A stretch of 34,994 bases of DNA. Source: an uncultured beta proteobacterium (GTDB lineage: Bacteria > Pseudomonadota > Gammaproteobacteria > Burkholderiales > Burkholderiaceae_C). Below are positions 121 to 10,977 of this stretch, in pieces. The position numbers and the translations under genes were made by a program. Positions within the stretch are counted from its first letter, which is position 1. The number at the start of each line of letters is the position of its first letter. The notes beneath the pieces are model-generated. The model worked only from the letters and a program-made list of their open reading frames with translations, made no database searches and was not told where the DNA came from. The stretch covers positions 1 through 34,994 of the forward strand of contig CAJBBZ010000253.1 in NCBI GenBank assembly GCA_903951445.1. Reading direction: 5' to 3'.

Positions 121-3100
121 TTAGTTGCGCCGCGCCAACACCCGTTGCAGGTACGTACCCGTAAAACTCCCAGGAGTACCCGCAATATCCTCCGGCGTCC
201 CCGCAGCCACCAGGGTGCCGCCACCGGACCCCCCCTCCGGTCCCATGTCGATCACCCAATCGGCGGTTTTGATGACGTCCAGGTTGTGCTCGATCACCAC
301 AATCGTGTTTCCCGCATCGCGCAACTGGTGTAGCACTTTGAGCAAAAGCGCAATGTCGGCAAAGTGCAAGCCGGTAGTGGGTTCGTCCAGGATGTAGAGC
401 GTGCGCCCCGTGTCGCGTTTGGACAATTCAAGCGCCAGCTTCACCCGCTGCGCTTCGCCGCCCGAGAGCGTGGTGGCCGATTGGCCCAGGCGGATGTAGC
501 TCAGGCCCACGTCCATCAAGGTTTGCAGTTTGCGCGCCAACGTCGGCACGGCCTGAAAAAAGTCCAGCGCCGCTTCTACCGTCAGGCCCAGGATATGGGC
601 AATGTTTTTGCCCTTGTACAACACCTCTAGCGTCTCGCGGTTGTAGCGCTGGCCGGCGCAGACGTCGCAGGGCACGTACACATCGGGCAAGAAATGCATT
701 TCCACTTTCACCATGCCGTCGCCCTGGCAGGCTTCGCAGCGCCCGCCGCCGCTGCCTGCGGGCACGTTAAAGCTAAAGCGCCCGGCGCCATAGCCGCGTT
801 CGCGTGCCATCGGCACTTCGGCCATCAGCTCGCGGATGGGGGTGAACAAGCCGGTGTAGGTGGCAGGATTGCTGCGTGGCGTGCGCCCAATGGGCGACTG
901 GTCTACGTTGATAACCTTGTCGAAATACTCAATGCCTTCGATGCTGTCATGCGGCGCCGGTTCTTCGTGCGCGCGGTGGATGGTGCGCGCGGCAGCGGCG
1001 TACAAAGTGTCGTTTACCAGCGTTGACTTACCCGAGCCCGAAACGCCGGTCACGCAGGTCAGTAAGCCCACCGGAAAGGCCACGCTCACGTTTTGTAAAT
1101 TATTGCCACGCGCGCCCAGTACGCGCAGCGATTGCCATTCGCCCAAGGTGGCGCGGTGGCGCGCTTCGCGCTCGGCGCGCCGCTCGGCCGCAGGGCTGGG
1201 CGCAAAGCGCGACGGATTTTTGGCTTGGTAAGCGACGCTCTCTACCGTCGGTAACCACGCACGCCGTTGCGCGGGTACGGCAATTTGCAGCGCGCCCGAC
1301 AGGTATTTGCCCGTGAGCGAGTTAGGGTTGTCGCGCACCTGCGCAAAGCTGCCTTGCGCCGTTACCTGCCCGCCGTGTAAACCCGCGCCCGGGCCCATGT
1401 CGATCACGTAGTCGGCGGCGCGCATCATGTCTTCGTCATGCTCCACCACCAGCACGCTGTTGCCGATGTCGCGCAAATGCCGCAAGGTGCTGATCAGGCG
1501 GTCGTTGTCGCGCTGGTGCAGGCCGATGCTGGGTTCGTCCAGCACATACATCACGCCGGTCAGGCCCGAGCCGATCTGGCTGGCCAGCCGTATGCGTTGC
1601 GACTCGCCGCCGCTCAGCGTCTCGGCGCTGCGCGAGAGGCTTAAGTAACTCAGGCCCACGTCGTTTAAAAACTTCAGGCGTAGACCGATTTCACGCACTA
1701 CCTTGGCGGCAATCTCGCCTTTGGAGCCGCGCAGTTGCAGGCTCTCAAAATAGCTTTGCGCTTCTAGCAAAGTGCTTTGGCTGATCTCAAAAATCGCCCG
1801 CGCCTGGCTGCCTTCGCCCACCTTCACATGACGCGCCTCGGCGCGCAAGCGTGTGCCATTGCATTCGCTGCATGGGTGCGTGCTGCGCAAGCGGGCCAGG
1901 TCTTCGCGCACCAGGCTCGATTCGGTCTCGCGGTAGCGTCGCTGCAAATTGGGCAACACGCCTTCAAACGGGTGCTTTTTAGTCACCTTGCGGCCTTGCG
2001 AATTGCCGGACTCGATCACATAGCTGAACTTGATCTCCTCCTCGCCCGAGCCATGCAGCACCGCGTCTTGCACCTGCGCGGGCAGGTCTTCAAAAGGCGC
2101 TTCTACGTCAAATTTGTAATGCTTGGCCAGGCTCTCCAGCATGGCAAAGTAATAACCGTTGCGCCTGTCCCAGCCTTTGATGGCGCCGCTGGCCAGGCTG
2201 AGCGAGGGGAAGGCCACGACCCGCGCTACATCAAAAATATCTTGCTGCCCCAGCCCGTCGCACGCGGTGCAGGCGCCCACGGGTGAGTTGAAAGAAAACA
2301 AACGCGGCTCTAGCTCGCTGATGCTATAGCTGCACTGCGGGCAGGCAAATTTGGCGTTAAAGCGGTGCTCCACCAAGCTGCCGTCTGCGGCGCTGCTGTC
2401 CATCTCCAGCGCAATCGCGCGGCCCGCGGCCAGGCGCAGCGCGGCTTCAAAGCTTTCGGCCAGGCGTTGTTGCAACTCGGGGCGCACTTTCAGCCGGTCC
2501 ACCACCACATCGACATCGTGTTTTTCGTTTTTCTTTAGCAGTGGCAAGTCTTGCGCTTCATAGACCACGCCGTTGATGCGAAAGCGCACATAGCCTTGCG
2601 CCTGCATGTGCGCAAACACATCTAAAAACTCGCCTTTCTTCTCCCGCGCTACGGGCGCCACAATCATCAGCCGCGTGTCCTGCGGCAACGCCAGCACCGC
2701 ATCAACCATTTGACTGACGGTTTGTGCTTGCAGGGGCTGGCCGTGGTCGGGGCAGTAGGGCGTACCGGCGCGGGCAAACAGGAGGCGCAGGTAGTCGTGG
2801 ATTTCGGTGACCGTACCCACGGTAGAGCGCGGGTTGTGGCTGGTGGCTTTTTGCTCGATGGAGATGGCGGGCGAGAGGCCCTCGATCATGTCCACATCGG
2901 GCTTGTCCATCAGCTGCAAAAACTGCCGCGCGTAGGTGGACAGGCTTTCCACATAGCGGCGCTGGCCTTCGGCGTAGAGCGTGTCAAAGGCCAGGCTGGA
3001 TTTGCCCGAGCCGGACAAGCCGGTAATTACCACCAACTGGTTGCGCGGAATGTCCAGATCGATGTTCTTGAGGTTGTGGGTACGCGCCCCCCGAATGCTG

Positions 3101-4524: not shown

Positions 4525-4590
4525 ACGGCACTGGCATTGGCGCTTGACGAAAAACTGCGCTTTTAACGCAAAAACAGTATTCCAAATCTG

Positions 4591-4639
4591 CGTCATCGCG
4601 AGGCGCGAAGCGACGTGGCGATCCATTCTGGCGTGACGC
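4591..4639. repeat. REP-like palindromic repeat, copy 1
   Basis: Begins CGTCATCGCGAGG and continues through GTGGCGATCCAT to GCGTGACG. The outer arms CGTCA/TGACG and inner arms ATCGC/GCGAT make it a compound hairpin. It is related to the element at 10439-10506 (see that entry). It lies between genes, as expected of a dispersed extragenic palindrome. Confidence 0.65.
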
Positions 4640-4821
4640 ATTGGCGGCAACTTGGCGTCGATGGGTGCGCCTATGAAACGCAGCATTTGAAGTCATCCTG
4701 ACTTGAACAGCCCTTCATTTTTGCGGCATTTAAATCTTGCTAAAAAACATATACTTGCCTAAATAGTATTTACATCAGCCCGATTTATCCACCCGGTCTG
4801 GATGTATCAACCGGGTTTTAC

Positions 4822-4840
4822 GATCTAGATTACGTTAGAC
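4822..4840 (+). other. Cassette left boundary; possible attI-like simple site
   Basis: GTTAGAC at 4834-4840 fits the integron core-site rule GTTRRRY. It is the exact reverse complement of the R'' box GTCTAAC at the far end of the cassette (5522-5528). The bases before it (GATCTAGATTAC) include ATCTAGA, a rough inverted copy of the core, as expected for a simple attI-type site. No attC-like folding is seen to its left. It could instead be a secondary site used once. No integrase gene is in view. Confidence 0.45.
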
Positions 4841-5644
4841 CTCGCAAACACACGCTTAGGAGTCTGCATGCCGAAGAAGAAGAGCAACCCGGACACGTAC
4901 AGGATCGCAATCAATGGCAACTGGTCCTTCGAGGATCTCTACGTCTTTCCACGCGCCTACGAACAGGTCTACTTCCTGGTTCAATCCCTTTCGCCTGAGC
5001 ATGACGAGCAAGACCTGGAGCGAATCAATCACTCGTTCAGAGCTTTCCCGTGGCGCGGTGGATATAGCGCCGTAAACTTCTACAACCAACTCAAGTTCGT
5101 CACTCCGGCAAAGGCACGGCCACAAATCGTTTCAATGCACAAGGGCTCGCCTGGATGGTTTGAACTCGCGCTAGTTGTCGCAGCGGCCATCTCTGTAGAA
5201 CGCCTCGTCAAGAGTGTCGCAAACTCAATTGACCACACTCACGGAATCTACGACAAGGTCGTTAAGGGGCTCATGGAAAGGAAGCTTCTTCGCCTTGACG
5301 TAAAGCGCAAAGAGCTTCAGTTTAAGCAAGAGGAACTGAATTACATTGAATCCTCGCTGAATCAAATGGCAAGGATTCTGGGCTTTGACAACTTGAAGAA
5401 AATCAACGAAAAGACTGGGCATCCATATGTTTCGTTGAAGATTCTCTTATCGCTATATCGCAGAGTCCGAAAGTTGGCGGACTACTCGGAAAAGGGAAAG
5501 GCAAATTTTGGTGACGGCGAGGTCTAACCCCTCGCTCAAGCGGAGCGCCAACGGCAGGCCACCAGGCCCGGTCTGGCGGTACGCGGTACATTTTCGCCAG
5601 CCCGGGCCTGGCGTCCTGCCGTCGTCGCCCGCTTAGCTCGAACG
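4835..5644 (+). mobile_element. Single integron-type gene cassette (810 bp)
   Basis: Bounded on the left by G/TTAGAC (cut between 4834 and 4835) and on the right by the attC core G/TTGAGG (between 5644 and 5645). It has the compact cassette plan: a 33-base leader with ribosome site, one gene, and an attC whose first box overlaps the stop codon. Base composition is lower in GC than the flanking core genes. No intI gene is found in the window, so this is an orphan cassette (CALIN-like) or a cassette inserted at a secondary site. Confidence 0.8.
4868..5527 (+). CDS. Cassette-encoded protein of unknown function
   Basis: 219 aa that I cannot assign to a family with confidence. Residues 1-110 form a globular part with the motifs FPWRGGYSAVNFYNQL (about 60-75) and VSMHKGSPGWFEL (about 88-100). 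A moderately hydrophobic stretch follows (about 97-117, rich in Ala and Val), then a long charged helix (about 128-170, KRKELQFKQEELNYIESSL), probably coiled coil. The hydrophobic stretch is short and may be a buried helix rather than a membrane segment. The ATG at 4868 has a good ribosome site (TTAGGAG, 4856-4862). The stop TAA lies inside the attC R'' box. Codon use is AT-richer than in neighbouring core genes, in line with transfer. Confidence 0.85.
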   Translation: MPKKKSNPDTYRIAINGNWSFEDLYVFPRAYEQVYFLVQSLSPEHDEQDLERINHSFRAFPWRGGYSAVNFYNQLKFVTPAKARPQIVSMHKGSPGWFELALVVAAAISVERLVKSVANSIDHTHGIYDKVVKGLMERKLLRLDVKRKELQFKQEELNYIESSLNQMARILGFDNLKKINEKTGHPYVSLKILLSLYRRVRKLADYSEKGKANFGDGEV

Positions 5645-5650
5645 TTGAGG
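5522..5650 (+). other. Integron attC recombination site (129 bp)
   Basis: R'' = GTCTAAC (5522-5528) and R' = GTTGAGG (5644-5650). Between them the two halves pair almost along their whole length. The 5' arm reads CGCTCAAGCGG...ACGGCAGG...CCAGGCCCGG, and the reverse complement of the 3' arm reads GAGCTAAGCGG...ACGGCAGG...CCAGGCCCGG. The L''/L' pair around TCAAGCGG/CGCTTAG carries the offset expected for extrahelical bases. The long variable terminal structure places it at the long end of known attC sizes. The last base of R' departs from GTTRRRY, which may mark where the next element (5651 onward) was joined. Confidence 0.88.
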
Positions 5651-5740
5651 CTGTAAAAAAAGTCCTTTTCTAACGATAACGCAGTCATCACTTCGAACGG
5701 TCATAACGTTGTATTGCAAGTCCCCTCACTTGGAAAACAA

Positions 5741-6115
5741 ATGGCCCGCTACAAACCCCAAGACCTCAACAGCCTGCTGCTACCCGTGGTCTTGTCTGAG
5801 CAAATTGTCCCCGGCACTTTCGCCTTCGCACTGAACTAGCTGGTCGATCACGAACTCGATCTCAAACCCTTAGATGCCCGGTTCAAGAACGATGAAGTCG
5901 GAGCCAGTGCGTACGACCCTCGCGTGATGCTCAAGATCGTCTTGCTGGCCTACAGCCAGGGCCTGATCTCCAGCCGCGCCATTGAGCAAGCCTGTGCGCG
6001 CAATGTCCAATTCATCGCCATCAGCGGCGACAGTCAACCCAGCCACACCCACATCGCCAAGTGCGTGGCCAACCTGGGCCATCAAATCAAACCTCTACGC
6101 CGACTCGATGGCTGA
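5741..6115 (+). pseudogene. IS1182-like transposase remnant (DUF772), broken
   Basis: The reading frame gives MARYKPQDLNSLLLPVVLSE, then an in-frame TAG at 5837-5839 (FAFALN*LVDHELDLKPL), then the typical N-terminal transposase block ASAYDPRVMLKIVLLAYSQGLISSRAIEQAC and HIAKCVANLGHQIKPL. After that the match stops and the frame ends at 6115. About the first quarter of a normal IS1182-type transposase is present; the catalytic domain is missing. The left end of the element probably lies in 5651-5740, directly against the attC site. A dead insertion sequence fragment is the simplest reading. Confidence 0.82.
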
Positions 6116-6280: not shown

Positions 6281-6622
6281 GTGAAAAGAAACGAAACGCC
6301 ACTATTGACCCCTGCCCGCCTGCAGGAATCCCGAGCCTTGGGCGAAAAGGTGGCACGCCTGCGCATGGCCCGCCAGTGGCGCCAGGCCGATGCCGCTGCG
6401 CGGGCGGGCCTATCGCGATCCACCGCCATCCTCATTGAGCAAGGCGACCCTGGCCGCACGCTGGCGCAAATCCTGCGCTACCTAGAGGCCATCGCGCCTG
6501 GGCTGCCTCTGCTGAACCTGCTGCAAGAAACAGACCCCTCGCTCACCGCGCTCGCCGCCCGTGAGCGCACACAGCGGGTGCGCGCCTTGAGCCAGGCCGA
6601 ACTCAACAAGCTGGATTTCTGA
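6281..6622 (+). CDS. XRE-family HTH regulator (HipB-like antitoxin)
   Basis: 113 aa. A helix-turn-helix of the XRE/Cro type occupies about residues 19-75 (LGEKVARLRMARQWRQADAA, ARAGLSRSTAILIEQG), and the C-terminal tail resembles HipB partners. The start is GTG at 6281, 8 bases after the second operator palindrome. Its stop overlaps the start of a broken hipA gene (TGATG), the usual antitoxin-then-toxin order. With the toxin destroyed, this antitoxin is probably a leftover that may still repress its own promoter. Confidence 0.85.
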   Translation: MKRNETPLLTPARLQESRALGEKVARLRMARQWRQADAAARAGLSRSTAILIEQGDPGRTLAQILRYLEAIAPGLPLLNLLQETDPSLTALAARERTQRVRALSQAELNKLDF

Positions 6623-7099
6623 TGGCCGCCACCCAAGATGAACTGGCGGTATTTGCCTGGCTGCCTGGCCCGCCTGGTGTTCAACATCTTCGTCAGCAAC
6701 GACGATGACCACCTGCGCAACCACGCCTTTGTGCGCGACCCGCGCCTGAGCGAAGCCCCCTCACAGCTCGGCGGCTGGCAACCAAGCCCGCTCTACGACG
6801 TGGTGCCCCGCCCCGGCGTGGCCCACGAGCGCATGCTTCATCTGGAGGTGGGCGACCAAGGCAAGCTCGCCACCCTGGACAACGCGCTCAGCCGCTTCGC
6901 GGCGTTCACGCCGTCGCGCGCACGGGCGCTGGAAATCATCCGACGCGTGTGGGGCGAAGTGCGGCAATGGAAAACCACGTTCGCGGCACACGGGGCCAGC
7001 GACTTGCTGGTAGACCAACTGGCGGGCGCGTTCCGGGTGCTGGAGGACATTGCCAGCCCGAAGTTGGTGGGGGAGATACGGGGTCGGGGGACGCTATAG
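6622..7099 (+). pseudogene. hipA-like toxin kinase with large internal deletion
   Basis: An ATG at 6622 overlaps the antitoxin stop and opens a normal-looking HipA start (MAATQDELAVFAWLPG). At about 6660-6670 the sequence jumps, in a different frame, to the HipA C-terminal half. That half reads LARLVFNIFVSNDDDHLRNHAFV with the kinase loop Asp, then GGWQPSPLYDVVP with the metal-binding Asp, running to 7099. Roughly 250 codons holding the fold and ATP-binding part are gone. Short GCCTGG repeats at the join may have mediated the loss. The remaining C-terminal frame (6638-7099, 153 aa) has no proper start. Confidence 0.82.
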
Positions 7100-7156
7100 C
7101 CGCAAGGCGGGGACTTTGCGCACGGGCCGGGAAAGTCAATTTGATCTCACGATACG

Positions 7157-7398
7157 TTTACCTTTGAAGATGACCGCTCTTCCTAGGCGAACAACGCTTT
7201 GTAACCCTTGGCTTGCTCGCTGGCATACCTGTTTCAGTCGTACATACAGAGAGTGAAAATGAAATCCGCATCATCTCGTTCCGAAAAGCAAGCAAGCGCG
7301 AGTCGCAAACCTATTACGATGAAATCCAAAACCGATTTGGCGCGACTGCAGTCCGACGTCGCCGATGTGAAGCTAACGCCAGAACACCCAGAGGCTGA
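7157..7398 (+). pseudogene. brnT-like toxin remnant
   Basis: The frame ending at 7398 encodes GEQRFVTLGLLAGIPVSVVHTE...IRIISFRKASKRESQTYYDEI. This matches the C-terminal half of BrnT (DUF497) ribonuclease toxins, including the RIISxRKAxKRE signature. Upstream, TFTFEDDRSS continues the family pattern but in another frame: one base is missing near 7184. No complete N-terminus is present. The toxin is therefore dead by truncation and frameshift. Confidence 0.65.
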
Positions 7399-7516
7399 CG
7401 TAAAGCACATTGTGCGTGGCACGGCGCGTACCCGGCAAGGCCTCGCCATTCGCATGCCGACCCAAGACGAAGACAAAGCGATTACTGCGGCAATCAAAAG
7501 CGATCCCGACGCGTAG
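7319..7516 (+). pseudogene. brnA-like antitoxin fragment
   Basis: An ATG at 7319 lies within the end of the BrnT homology (tyr-Asp-Glu-Ile codons), the usual overlap of brnT and brnA. The 65-aa product contains GLAIRMPTQDEDKAITAAIKSDPDA, like the middle of BrnA antitoxins. It stops at TAG before the DNA-binding C-terminal half (the ITIRLDxDVLxxFK type region). An in-frame longer start at 7259 exists but overlaps the toxin remnant. It is likely the decayed partner of the BrnT remnant. Confidence 0.5.
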
Positions 7517-7555
7517 CCGCGTAGCCACTTGCTTAAAGCAACTCAAAAAACGGGT

Positions 7556-7598
7556 TTCACCATAATACAGACACATGTAATATACGGGTTTCCGTATA
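7556..7598 (+). promoter_or_regulatory. Promoter and operator of the RHH/PIN module
   Basis: TTCACC (7556-7561), a 16-bp spacer and TAATAT (7578-7583) fit a sigma-70 promoter. An inverted repeat TATACGG (7581-7587) / CCGTATA (7592-7598) with a 4-base centre overlaps the -10 box. That is where a ribbon-helix-helix antitoxin would bind to repress its own operon. Confidence 0.6.
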
Positions 7599-7614
7599 GT
7601 CAAAGGAGCCCCGC

Positions 7615-7962
7615 ATGTCGAATACGAACTTCACGGTCGCCATTCCGGATGAGTTGCTGACCGCGGCCAAGGTGATGGCTGCCAAGTCGGGCACGTCTTT
7701 GAATTCCATCATTCGCAATTTACTAGACGGTTTTGTAAATAACGAGAGCACGCCGCTGTCCGGGAATTATGAAATCTTGCTCAAATATGCCTTGGGGCAG
7801 ATGGCGGCCAAAAAGGCAATCAAGCAACTGCATTTGGAAAATGTCAACGAGCTCAATGCCTTTACGATTCAGGCCGGGTTTCCGCTGCCCCGGGTGTCTT
7901 TGCAAGAAAATGAAGACATGCAAAAGCGCTTTGGCCAAATGCTAGACCGGGCTGGCGCGTGA
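7615..7962 (+). CDS. Ribbon-helix-helix-type antitoxin (putative)
   Basis: 115 aa. The N-terminus reads TNFTVAIPDELLTAAKVMAAKSGTSLNSIIRNLLDGFV: a short beta strand followed by two helices with a Gly-Thr-Ser turn, the MetJ/Arc/CopG (RHH) pattern. Residues 45-115 carry no motif I know and may hold the toxin-binding part. AAGGAG (7603-7608) is a strong ribosome site for the ATG at 7615. The stop overlaps the next start by 4 bases (GTGA), giving translational coupling with the PIN protein, as in antitoxin-toxin operons. Confidence 0.75.
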   Translation: MSNTNFTVAIPDELLTAAKVMAAKSGTSLNSIIRNLLDGFVNNESTPLSGNYEILLKYALGQMAAKKAIKQLHLENVNELNAFTIQAGFPLPRVSLQENEDMQKRFGQMLDRAGA

Positions 7963-8570
7963 CGGTTTGCAGCATTGTTATCGTCGATGCAGGCCCCTTA
8001 AAAACGCTTGCTTACTCCGGCAGGATAGACCTGCTACTTCGCTGCGGTGTGCCGGTGCAGGTCTCCGATATGGTGGTTCAGGAGATAAAAAATGGGCAGC
8101 AATTTCTTGGCAACACCATCGCACTTGCATTCATCGAGGGCCATCTTGGAAAAGGGATCACACTGGCCCTGACCGGTGTTCCCGCCATAGCAGACAAGCT
8201 TGCACAACTCAATGTTGACCCAGGCGACGAATCCATCCGCCGCTTAATTGCGCGCCTCGACGAGGCGACCGATGGGAATGAATACGCGCTGCTCGTCTCC
8301 GAAGACGATCGCTTGATGAAAACCGCAGACTTGAGCGGCATGACCTATTTCCTGACGACGCGCCCATTTCTCTTGGAAATGGAGAAACGTGGCCTGGTGG
8401 ATAACGCGGAATCATTGATGCTGATCGCCGAACGTGCCGCCGTGGCAGCAGGCGAAGGGCCAGGCCGTGGCCAGTTAAAACGCAAGCGGGAATGGAGCAG
8501 TCCCCCACGCCGAAATGCGCTGGCGCAGCCATTTCCAGGCAAGAAAAATGCTGATCCTGACTTTTCCTAG
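7959..8570 (+). CDS. PIN-like domain protein, putative toxin
   Basis: 203 aa starting at GTG 7959 inside the antitoxin stop. The start IVIVDAGPLKTLAYSGRIDLL holds the first PIN Asp. VSDMVVQEIKNG gives the conserved Glu, and DEATDGNEYALLVSEDDRLMK the later acidic residues. PIN domains are metal-dependent ribonucleases, so a VapC-like toxin role is likely. From about residue 165 the tail is rich in Gly, Arg, Pro and Lys and unlike a PIN fold; it may be an added or frameshifted end. Its target RNA cannot be told. Confidence 0.72.
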   Translation: MTVCSIVIVDAGPLKTLAYSGRIDLLLRCGVPVQVSDMVVQEIKNGQQFLGNTIALAFIEGHLGKGITLALTGVPAIADKLAQLNVDPGDESIRRLIARLDEATDGNEYALLVSEDDRLMKTADLSGMTYFLTTRPFLLEMEKRGLVDNAESLMLIAERAAVAAGEGPGRGQLKRKREWSSPPRRNALAQPFPGKKNADPDFS

Positions 8571-8585
8571 CCATTGACCTGCCCT

Positions 8586-8670
8586 TTTTAACTTGCAAGC
8601 TAGTGCGCCGCCCAGTGATGCAATGCGCCGGCCATAGCAGATCTGCGGCGCTGACATCTTTAAGTTGCGC
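8586..8670 (+). repeat. Symmetric inverted repeat, possible decayed attC
   Basis: AACTT (8590-8594) pairs with AAGTT (8662-8666), and GCGCCGC (8605-8611) with GCGGCGC (8645-8651). Both arms share one centre and have equal 10-base gaps. The outer ends TTTTAAC (8586-8592) and GTTGCGC (8664-8670) resemble degenerate attC R boxes. It begins 15 bases after the PIN gene stop, where an attC would sit. A transcription terminator or chance structure remains possible. Confidence 0.35.
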
Positions 8671-8674
8671 AGTA

Positions 8675-8741
8675 ATTTATCTATTTAAATAAACTTATTT
8701 ATCATTTAAGATGATCTATATATGCATCGAAATAGATAAAT
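8675..8741. promoter_or_regulatory. Operator/promoter region of the HipA-family module
   Basis: A perfect 12-bp inverted repeat ATTTATCTATTT (8675-8686) / AAATAGATAAAT (8730-8741) is separated by 43 AT-rich bases. A related half-site TTATTTATC lies between the arms (8695-8703). A -10-like TATATA (8717-8722) lies inside. The right arm ends two bases before the ATG, so a bound XRE partner could block both transcription start and ribosome access. Confidence 0.65.
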
Positions 8742-8742
8742 A

Positions 8743-10089
8743 ATGGAATTCCCCCAAAAAACCTTTATTGAGCTGCACTACGCGGGCGAGTGGCATGCCG
8801 CTGCGGAATTGACCGCGTTTTCCAGTAATCGCATTCGCGTGAACTACCTGGACTCCTATGTGTTTGGTGGAGTCGGCTTGCCGGTCTCGCTGCGGCTTCC
8901 GGTGGCTATCGCCGCCGAGCCCATGGTGGAGGGCTTGACGGGCCCAGAGCCTGATCGTCGCCCGGCGCCCTTTCTTTATGACCTGGTGCCGCAGGGCAGG
9001 GGCCGGGCTTATTTGCTGTCCAAGCTCCAGTTGGCCGATGCGGATGACGATGTGATTGCGCCGCTGCTGATGGCGGGCGCTTTCAATCCTGTCGGGAACC
9101 TGCGGATTAGCTCGGCGGTGTACTTTTACAAAGACGAAGCAGCAAAGGACCCGTCCGATGTAGCGGAAACAGGATTTGCCTTGCAAGACATCGCCGACCG
9201 AAGCGAAGAGTTTCTTGAACACATTACCCTGCACTCCATGCTGGCAGCCGGGACTACCGGCGTGCAAGGCGTGGCCCCCAAATTTTTGCTGACCACCAAC
9301 GCCGATGGTCGATGGTTCGCAGACCTGGCACTTGACGACAGCATGGCGCACGAACATTGGCTGGTAAAGCTCCCCCGAGGCCGCCATGAAGATGACCGCG
9401 CCGTGCTGCGCAACGAGGCCGCCTACCTGCGCTTGGCAGCGGCCTGCGGGCTCCATTGCAGGAATGACCACAAGCTAGTGGGTGAAATGCTTTTTGTGCA
9501 CCGTTTTGACCGGGTGCGCCAGCACGGAATACTCCATCGGCTGCACCAAGAAAGCGTGGCCAGCATCGTGGGCCAGCGCGGATTTGGGCACAGCCACACA
9601 CAGCAAACGCTGCTGGCCGGCATCCGCGATGTAGTCGATGACCCTTTGTCGCAAACCATCGAATTCATCAAGCGCGATGTTTTAAACCTTGCCATGCGCA
9701 ATACCGACAACCACGCGCGCAATACCGCTATCCAAAGGACGGTGGATGGCCGTATCGCTTTAACGCCCTTGTTTGACTTTGCGCCCATGTTCAAAGACCC
9801 CGAAGTGGTCGCCAGATCATGTCTGTGGCGCGACAAGCAGGGCGTGCGTCAAGATGACTGGACGCAAATAATCGAAAACCTCGAGCTGCCCGGCGACGAA
9901 ATCCCTCTGATTCAACACGCGCTCAATGAGTTTGGCCGGTCGTATGAGCTGGAAAAAATAGCCAAGGATTGCGGCGTGGAAGAAGACGTACTTGCGCAGT
10001 GCAAAAAGTCCATCGACAAGCAATGGCAGCAGTTGGAGCGACTACCGCGCTTGCCCACTAGCCCAGCACAGGTGCCACACCATGGATAA
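8743..10089 (+). CDS. HipA-family toxin kinase
   Basis: A 448-aa serine/threonine kinase-like toxin. The N-terminal domain (about 1-125) includes the FGGVGLPVSLRLP and PFLYDLVPQGRGR segments. The kinase core has K209 (HWLVKLPRG, ATP-binding position), the catalytic loop RNTDNHARN with D322, and PLFDFAP with metal-binding D345. The 23-residue spacing equals that of D309/D332 in E. coli HipA, so the enzyme looks intact. Known HipA proteins phosphorylate aminoacyl-tRNA synthetases; the target here is unknown. The ATG at 8743 has no ribosome site, so the message may be leaderless or poorly translated. The XRE gene follows with an 8-base overlap, the reverse of the classic hipB-hipA order. Confidence 0.88.
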   Translation: MEFPQKTFIELHYAGEWHAAAELTAFSSNRIRVNYLDSYVFGGVGLPVSLRLPVAIAAEPMVEGLTGPEPDRRPAPFLYDLVPQGRGRAYLLSKLQLADADDDVIAPLLMAGAFNPVGNLRISSAVYFYKDEAAKDPSDVAETGFALQDIADRSEEFLEHITLHSMLAAGTTGVQGVAPKFLLTTNADGRWFADLALDDSMAHEHWLVKLPRGRHEDDRAVLRNEAAYLRLAAACGLHCRNDHKLVGEMLFVHRFDRVRQHGILHRLHQESVASIVGQRGFGHSHTQQTLLAGIRDVVDDPLSQTIEFIKRDVLNLAMRNTDNHARNTAIQRTVDGRIALTPLFDFAPMFKDPEVVARSCLWRDKQGVRQDDWTQIIENLELPGDEIPLIQHALNEFGRSYELEKIAKDCGVEEDVLAQCKKSIDKQWQQLERLPRLPTSPAQVPHHG

Positions 10090-10435
10090 GCGAATCAAAG
10101 CCAAGCCATCGACCGATACGCAAATGGCGCGTCGCGACCAGTTTTACGCATCTATTCGCAAGGGCGAATTGTCTATCGCAGAGGCGGTGGTCGCTATGCG
10201 AAAAATGAGCCAGCTCACGCAGCCAGAGTTTGCCAAGCACCGCGGAATCAGCGTCCAGGCGCTGCGGCAAATTGAAAGCGGCACCGGCAACCCCACCGTG
10301 GAAACCCTCAACAAAATCGCCTCTATTTTTACAGTGCAAGTGGGGTTTTGCATTCCACCGGATGGGGCGGTCGGCAGCGCGCCAAAAGCACGCACCGCTT
10401 CAAGCCCAGGTAGTGCGCTTTCGCCAAAGCCATAG
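10082..10435 (+). CDS. XRE-family HTH protein, putative HipB-like antitoxin
   Basis: 117 aa. The HTH occupies about residues 36-88: AEAVVAMRKMSQLTQPEFAKHRGISVQALRQIESG, then NPTVETLNKIASIFTVQVGFC, which is close to the HipB core including its C-terminal beta strand. A Ser/Pro/Ala-rich tail follows. The ATG at 10082 lies inside the end of the toxin gene (overlap of 8 bases). It probably neutralises the HipA-family kinase and represses the module through the 8675-8741 repeats. Confidence 0.85.
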   Translation: MDKRIKAKPSTDTQMARRDQFYASIRKGELSIAEAVVAMRKMSQLTQPEFAKHRGISVQALRQIESGTGNPTVETLNKIASIFTVQVGFCIPPDGAVGSAPKARTASSPGSALSPKP

Positions 10436-10438
10436 TGC

Positions 10439-10506
10439 GCAGCGATGCGGCGATCCATGCAGGCATGGAGCCATGGATTGCCACGGCCTTCGGCCTCGCA
10501 ATGACC
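10439..10506. repeat. REP-like palindromic repeat, copy 2
   Basis: A compound hairpin: GCGATCCATG pairs with CATGGATTGC, and ATTGC (10477-10481) with GCAAT (10498-10502) around GGCC-TTC-GGCC. Read on the minus strand it gives GTCATTGCGAGGCCGAAGG then GTGGCAATCCATGG, clearly related to the element at 4591-4639. The two copies flank the accessory island. Confidence 0.7.
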
Positions 10507-10530
10507 AGTTTGCACTGGTGCATAGCTTAT

Positions 10531-10977
10531 TCAGGTAAACACGGCGCCCACGTACGGCACTCCAAGCGCCCGCAAACGCTTGGCCATGCATAACACCGCG
10601 TGGTCTTTACTCAGCAAACCGGCCCGTTGCGCCAGCGCCAGGTCGATAAAGCGCTGGTCGTCCGGATCTTTGCAGCGCAGCGGGGCGCGCTGAGCCACAT
10701 CTACTGTGTGGCTGTGCGTGTCGAAGTCGCGCAGCAAGTCCTCAAAGCTGCGCTGGTAAAAATCCATGCGCTTGGCGATATGCGGGTAGTCCAGCACGCG
10801 GGCCAGTTCCTCGCGCATGGGCGCGGTGCTGATCCAGCGGATGTGCGCTTGCGCCAGGGCCTCGCGCAGCGGCTGGGCGGCGGGGTCGGCGAAGAGAAAT
10901 ACATCGAGCACGATGTTGGTATCCAGCACCCACAGCGGGCGCTGCGCGTTATCTGCGGATGCGGTTGGCTGGCTCAA
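10531..10977 (-). CDS. PIN-domain protein (putative toxin, TIGR00305-like)
   Basis: 148 aa. A PIN domain begins at LWVLDTNIVLDVFLF (first Asp at residue 19), with STAPMREELARVL giving the Glu and KDPDDQRFIDLALAQRAGLLSKD the later acidic pair. This is the group often labelled 'putative toxin-antitoxin system toxin component, PIN family'. No antitoxin gene adjoins it. The apparent start is a TTG that directly follows the stop of the upstream methyltransferase gene, so it is probably translated by coupling in that operon. It may serve in RNA processing rather than as a toxin. Confidence 0.75.
   Translation of the reverse strand: MSQPTASADNAQRPLWVLDTNIVLDVFLFADPAAQPLREALAQAHIRWISTAPMREELARVLDYPHIAKRMDFYQRSFEDLLRDFDTHSHTVDVAQRAPLRCKDPDDQRFIDLALAQRAGLLSKDHAVLCMAKRLRALGVPYVGAVFT

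Follow-up and report, generated by a model that had tools for sequence, protein, structure and literature searches.

A gene cassette encoding a lone PD-T4-10 B-type C-terminal domain on the attI of a probable integron remnant

How does an integron gene cassette come to stand in a chromosome with no integrase in sight, and what does it encode? The question is raised by a single cassette in a 34,994-nucleotide stretch of DNA from an uncultured beta proteobacterium (hereafter the window), which is contig C253 in a draft assembly of 3.6 Mb and 294 contigs. The original prediction, made from the sequence alone, called it an orphan cassette that was left by a lost or distant integron or inserted at a secondary site. 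Numbered labels with G, C, and L denote genomes, contigs, and loci, and feature coordinates are collected in Table 1.

Table 1. Features of the cassette locus, in window coordinates
Feature	Position	Strand	Evidence
Left flank, kept with attI in three orthologous loci (G090:C32, G100:C8, G035:C128)	4691..4781	+	BLAST
attI, core GTT 4834-4836	4782..4840	+	Agreement with consensus; 84% to intI-adjacent attI of G010
Gene cassette (TTAGAC ... G)	4835..5644	+	Boundaries set by GTTRRRY and attC core
AGGAG, ribosome-binding-site-like	4858..4862	+	5 nt 5' of ATG
219-aa protein, almost certainly homologous to the PD-T4-10 B C-terminal domain	4868..5527	+	PADLOC PDLC04024, E=9.1e-40; 382 homologues at E<=1e-3
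attC, R'' 5522-5528, core GTT 5644-5646	5522..5650	+	Covariance models R1 and R2; fold z -8.9
Insertion sequence (IS) remnant, end GAGGCTGTAAAAAA 5647-5660, broken transposase from 5741, stop 5837-5839	5647..6096	+	PF05598 (DUF772, transposase), E=3.8e-14 on 5840-6115

The cassette proved real, with the predicted boundaries of GTTAGAC at 4834 and an attC at 5522 to 5650, based on two covariance models, folding, and base pairing. GTTAGAC (4834 to 4840) and its exact complement GTCTAAC (5522 to 5528) each occur once on the plus strand of the 35-kb window, and of the 410 GTT sites on that strand, just the one at 4834 is complementary to the R'' box along its full seven bases. In the free circle the R'' and R' boxes are therefore complementary at 7 of 7 positions (GTTAGAC and GTCTAAC), as befits a cassette. 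The sole open reading frame ends with a TAA at 5525 to 5527, inside the R'' box, and has a GC content of 0.495 versus 0.594 for the window, so both the position of the stop and the AT-richer composition had been read correctly. The gene may be expressed; a search for sigma-70-like promoters between 4500 and 5700 found none. Finding the same gene fixed in all relatives without attC had been named as an outcome that would speak against a cassette, and we found it in 1 of 41 searched genomes of the genus, its own.

The attC was searched for with covariance models, as the original prediction had proposed, and the window was excluded from the training of both. Model R1 was trained on five attC sites taken from the integrons of G009, G021, and G059, three related genomes, and also detected more attC sites adjoining intI in the genus; in the window it matched 5522 to 5650 on the plus strand with 28.6 bits (E=1e-4), the runner-up reaching 16.7 bits (E=0.094). 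Model R2, built on 43 hits from 50 loci, with at least one site (G055:C15) entered twice via overlapping loci, matched the same interval and strand with 48.8 bits (E=1.4e-10) over model positions 1 to 89 of 89. An unpaired base in the L stem of the window attC matches the model in the R2 alignment, giving the interrupted L-box stem of an attC. R2 found no second attC in the whole window up to E=10. The bottom strand of the site folds with -52.3 kcal/mol (z -8.9), which none of 200 shuffles equaled. Its last four bases (5647 to 5650) already belong to the end of the IS.

The sequence in front of the cassette is an attI, and we are nearly certain that the attC cassette stands on it. When the 43 positions from -40 to +3 are compared with a consensus built from 32 other copies, the window copy agrees at 37. 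Among 33 copies aligned at the core, which include orthologous loci and so are not independent, the frequency of the commonest base is 0.87 from -40 to -1, 1.00 at GTT, 0.77 at the four positions after GTT, and 0.45 beyond; the alignment draws on 37 cores, from which L065, L069, L153, and L169 were dropped because the core was misplaced or nothing beyond a short core matched. Conservation up to GTT with a drop beyond it is expected of a recombination point loaded with varied cassettes. An attI thus precedes the first cassette, as in an integron platform; a functional intI next to it, also part of such a platform, was not found in the window.

The integrase gene adjoining this type of attI is intact in G072, where a divergent intI (444 bits) starts 170 bp from the core GTT. 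The same attI element adjoins a decayed divergent intI in G010, G027, and G090, and 11 further copies have remnants of the intI start at -168 to -171 (nine at E<1e-3, the others at 7e-3 and 3e-2). Two loci, L103 and L154, show weak or displaced intI similarity only. For the other attI copies, tblastn detected no intI at E<=0.05 over 3 kb; this includes the window copy, searched over 3 kb upstream, in line with the predicted lack of an integrase nearby. Our genome yielded a single intI fragment (C233:4-357) at a contig end, covering model positions 62 to 179 with 139.8 bits against a cut-off of 265, and four attI matches, on C276, C59, C145, and C253. Its integrase thus looks lost rather than distant. 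Since the assembly is a draft, an intact intI could sit in one of its gaps.

Dispersed attI copies are found across the genus. An intI above the family cut-off is present in 21 of 103 genomes, and attI is matched at least once in 26, several of them (G022, G029, and G096) over 26 to 30 bp only; G007, G020, G046, G058, and G072 have both. Besides its intact intI with its own attI, G072 carries two attI on other contigs, 84 to 90% identical over ~160 bp, and copies also lie between the attC sites of single arrays (G100:C13, G055:C15, and G001). Closed or nearly closed genomes carry dispersed copies as well: attI lies far from intI in G007 (one contig) and G058 (two contigs), and G001 (two contigs) has attI copies with no intI match at E<=1e-30. 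Dispersal is thus not only an artifact of assembly. The intI of G007 has a different attI, judged by eye, so the extra attI of that genome need not be served by that IntI.

The copies are associated with attC sites in a consistent orientation. R2 was run on the window and 37 loci, 38 sources in all, and reported 61 attC hits at E<=0.1, of which 59 remain when L150 and L159 are left out for having no mapped attI core, though attI matches are listed on those contigs. All 59 share the strand of the attI and 51 lie downstream of it in the same fetched stretch, in a count that includes four hits of G055:C15 twice through the overlap of L113 and L153. The other eight lie upstream of the sole attI of their stretch (five in L153, two in L169, and one in L108), those of L153 sitting behind an attI that lies in the part of their contig covered by L113.

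How the copies spread bears on what the locus is a remnant of. The upstream sequence common to attI copies at different loci reaches ~55 to ~550 bp from the core, mostly less than 320, which would fit delta-attI-like units of varying length and would equally fit loss of intI from whole integrons. The strongest rival follows the latter course: the locus would be an entire second integron whose intI was lost in place, rather than an attI copy that moved without intI. We consider this a real possibility, with somewhat less than even odds. The decayed genes adjoining attI in G010, G027, and G090 are what it would lead one to expect, and a 2008 survey reported more than one integrase gene in 20% of integron-bearing bacteria (PMC2426708, accessible text). 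However, neither the window nor its three orthologues has an upstream trace of intI, the stretch that the window shares with attI at other loci ends, under the BLAST limit used, at about -67, and the copies inside the cassette arrays of G100:C13, G055:C15, and G001 also argue for movement of attI. A more ambitious joint reading would make the attI of this genus a dispersed element, with one integrase serving, or having served, several docking sites; attI would have spread by integrase recombination, as delta-attI cassettes, and the lone defense-toxin domain aboard would work without an antitoxin. Taken as a whole we hold this to be rather unlikely; if it is true, cassettes could be loaded at many places in the genome. 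Among the papers listed by our literature search for several or orphan attI, there was no account of dispersed chromosomal attI, within a coverage that leaves out most subscription journals.

The protein, which the original prediction had been unable to place, found its match in PADLOC. Residues 4 to 217 align with positions 133 to 349 of the 353 of the PD-T4-10_B profile, and two further profiles, PDLC04025 (4.4e-24) and PDLC04026 (7.7e-23), also match; Pfam, NCBIfam, and PDB sequences gave nothing usable. Based on these profiles, the protein is almost certainly a homologue of the C-terminal domain of PD-T4-10 B and not a full-length B, as its match starts at profile position 133 of 353 and an alignment with five long forms agrees. 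The general remark in the prediction that some cassette genes are defense or toxin genes fits this homology. All eight family members tested, including that of the window, match PD-T4-10_B. A 244-aa B model is also part of PADLOC, and the cassette protein aligns with it starting at position 24; earlier counts of B may therefore have included short forms. The AlphaFold model of the protein has a mean pLDDT of 84.9.

No Pfam domain was found among the 120 matches listed for the 382 homologues, and a family profile detected at least 786 members at E<=0.01 among the best 7996 candidates. Across 14 short and long forms, residues W19, Y35, W62, G65, S67, S94-P95-G96, K191, R198, and R199 (window numbering) do not vary. 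In 398 genomes of the phylum, the family occurs at E<=1e-6 in 10: five long forms (profile start 1 to 17), four short forms including that of the window (133 to 140), and one N-terminal domain only. At L196 (G155:C125, 1 to 1932, minus strand), the N-terminal domain of PD-T4-10 B (DUF6575) is fused to an M78 peptidase domain; from the sequence of this single case, the C-terminal part of B appears to be exchangeable.

Several relatives of the protein are also associated with attC. Among 15 further family loci, an attC at E<=0.01 directly adjoins the gene on one side at L170 and on both sides at L171 and L177; at L181 it is ~1 kb off, L173 has weaker matches only, and the remaining 10 gave none. 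R2 is remote from other phyla and lineages and bound to overlook attC sites there. In another set of five family loci, an attC immediately precedes the gene at L189 (E=4e-6), and that of L185 stands at a different place in the array (E=0.0015); no match at E<=0.1 was obtained for L186, L190, or L191. At L185 (Vibrio sp. HDW18), a 27% relative stands among genes each followed by 124- to 131-nt repeats that are 77 to 92% alike, apparently as in a Vibrio cassette array. A 26% relative is encoded at L186 (5986 to 6627, a Salmonella record), where a P2-like prophage ends: its gene directly follows ogrK and neighbors fieF. A second defense-rich locus in P2-like phages is described in the accessible text of PMC9519451 and may or may not be the place beside ogrK.

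What the lone domain does has to be weighed against its full-length relatives. As far as the available text of the source shows, PD-T4-10B acted as a toxin in E. coli experiments and PD-T4-10 A neutralized it as its antitoxin, the pair giving abortive protection against T-even phages (PMC9519451). We found an overlapping upstream open reading frame in all five long forms (129 to 158 aa) and in the G155 fusion, the six together spanning 128 to 158 aa. Four of those in long forms match PD-T4-10_A in PADLOC, one strongly (E=9.5e-33) and three weakly (2e-5, 6e-4, and 7e-4); the fifth and that of the G155 fusion do not. The cassette has no room for an overlapping A-like frame, and no antitoxin was found: PD-T4-10_A (PDLC04023) had no match in our genome at E<=0.1, nor did A match any of 11 open reading frames neighboring nine short-form loci at E<=0.01. 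Given the homology, the missing N-terminal domain, and the lack of a detectable A, the cassette therefore carries a lone toxin-family domain.

For a phage-defense role of the protein we see about an even chance, and whether the C-terminal domain is the toxic module is likewise evenly balanced. If it were toxic alone, lone cassettes without A should be lethal, yet they have spread, which hints that the C-terminal domain may be non-toxic by itself; toxicity could instead reside in the N-terminal domain. In the next rival, the C-terminal domain would not be the toxin but would sense PD-T4-10-like toxins or regulate them dominantly, and the cassette would be an antidote or decoy protecting its host from elements that carry them. 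The domain is tolerated without a detectable A, both in our genome and at the nine short-form loci, and in the long forms seen A accompanies the N-terminal domain, as this proposal would have it. G155, however, keeps the N-terminal domain and a similarly placed upstream frame and has its C-terminal part replaced by M78, an arrangement that, in this one case, resembles the swapping of an effector. We judge the antidote or decoy proposal improbable, with perhaps one chance in four.

The locus was also compared with related genomes. A search with the left-flank DNA showed that its last ~57 bases recur in the genus and on another contig of our genome, with matches that stop at the cassette start; 4782 to 4838 is 84% identical to the attI adjoining the decayed intI of G010 (E=3.4e-11). 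The window attI has orthologues in G090, G100, and G035, where the upstream DNA is the same and the sequence past the core differs: the three loci are 81 to 88% identical over 4691 to 4838 (4696 to 4838 in G035), and G090 matches the window at 94% across 2352 bp upstream. That an integrase active at another locus instead placed the cassette in a secondary site of the chromosome (attG), one of the origins named in the original prediction, and that the upstream similarity is a coincidence, could be argued from the variability of the region and the lack of an attI match at this locus in the near relatives G010, G002, G019, G050, and G027, but this is very improbable and largely refuted by the 57-bp attI match; three orthologues also retain attI.

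Other features were noted in and around the locus. At the equivalent place in near relatives without an attI match, GTTAGAA and attC-like pieces occur in L053 (G002; 3863 and ~2480, minus strand) and L052 (G027; 1781), possibly traces of older cassettes; R1 gave no attC match in L052 or L053 at E<=5. A dispersed repeat of ~30 to 54 bp at 4582 to 4640 is frequent in genomes of the genus and also lies on C16, C133, and C244 of our genome. Positions 6281 to 10977 form a variable region with HTH and HipA-domain genes (PF07804; one short HipA at 6638 to 7099), bordered by what we take to be DUF4287-like and PIN/RlmKL-like genes.

An IS lies directly behind the attC core; we set its right limit where similarity to G010 resumes (6097). 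Its end GAGGCTGTAAAAAA has four exact copies in the genome, none of them outside two integron arrays: that of the window contains one and that on C276 the other three (L103; 3815 to 3828, 4759 to 4772, and 4904 to 4917). GTT precedes three of the four; the remaining copy forms the other end of one element and has GTT after it. One IS remnant of ~160 bp has GTT on both sides. With the IS in this position and integrase function lost, the cassette has probably become a fixed gene of the chromosome and looks frozen.

We therefore return to the reading that the locus is the remnant of an integron platform, with an attI-borne cassette that encodes a lone C-terminal domain of the PD-T4-10 B type, and assign it as a whole a probability of roughly 80%. 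A circular cassette would have been recombined into attI by an integrase of the IntI type, as its anatomy and established integron biochemistry suggest; integrase function would then have been lost from the genome, and an IS would have landed straight behind the attC core. The most likely role of the protein would be that of a solitary antiphage effector, quiet without A through the absence of the perhaps regulatory N-terminal domain, and, once triggered, could act by abortive infection.

Integrase-less arrays are usually recognized by attC alone and read as degraded integrons. A defined attI heading such an array marks the loading place, and attI can be present in several copies per genome. 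A protein unplaced by general family libraries proves to be the C-terminal domain, standing alone, of a phage-defense toxin discovered only recently, and in several lineages that domain is encoded by integron cassettes that lack the antitoxin. Such cassettes offer a way to ask which of the two halves of PD-T4-10 B is the toxic one, and how cells tolerate a toxin-family domain on its own.

Relative to the PD-T4-10 system, the cassette protein is homologous to B over nearly its own whole length but consists of the C-terminal domain only, without the N-terminal domain or a detectable A, and is carried by an integron. IS1111-attC insertion sequences target attC, and the IS here likewise ends at attC core sites, but its transposase piece is of the DUF772 type (PF05598) and its ends are GAGGCTGTAAAAAA. 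CALINs share with this locus attC cassettes without a neighboring integrase at fixed chromosomal loci; in Xanthomonas, seven separate loci with CALINs were described in addition to the one with intI (PMC12444791, accessible part). The IntegronFinder 2 default for a CALIN is at least two attC without intI (PMC9024848, accessible part), whereas the window has one attC and the remnant still starts at attI. The same text has it that IntegronFinder 2 does not detect attI outside class 1, so attI-headed remnants could be missed. In the delta-attI-type cassettes of class 1 and 2 integrons, too, attI sequence stands away from its intI-proximal position, with a varying length of up to 244 nt according to the accessible text of PMC12901181. 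In those cassettes, however, which lie within a mobile integron, a piece of attI takes the place of attC, whereas in this genus attI copies head arrays at separate loci.
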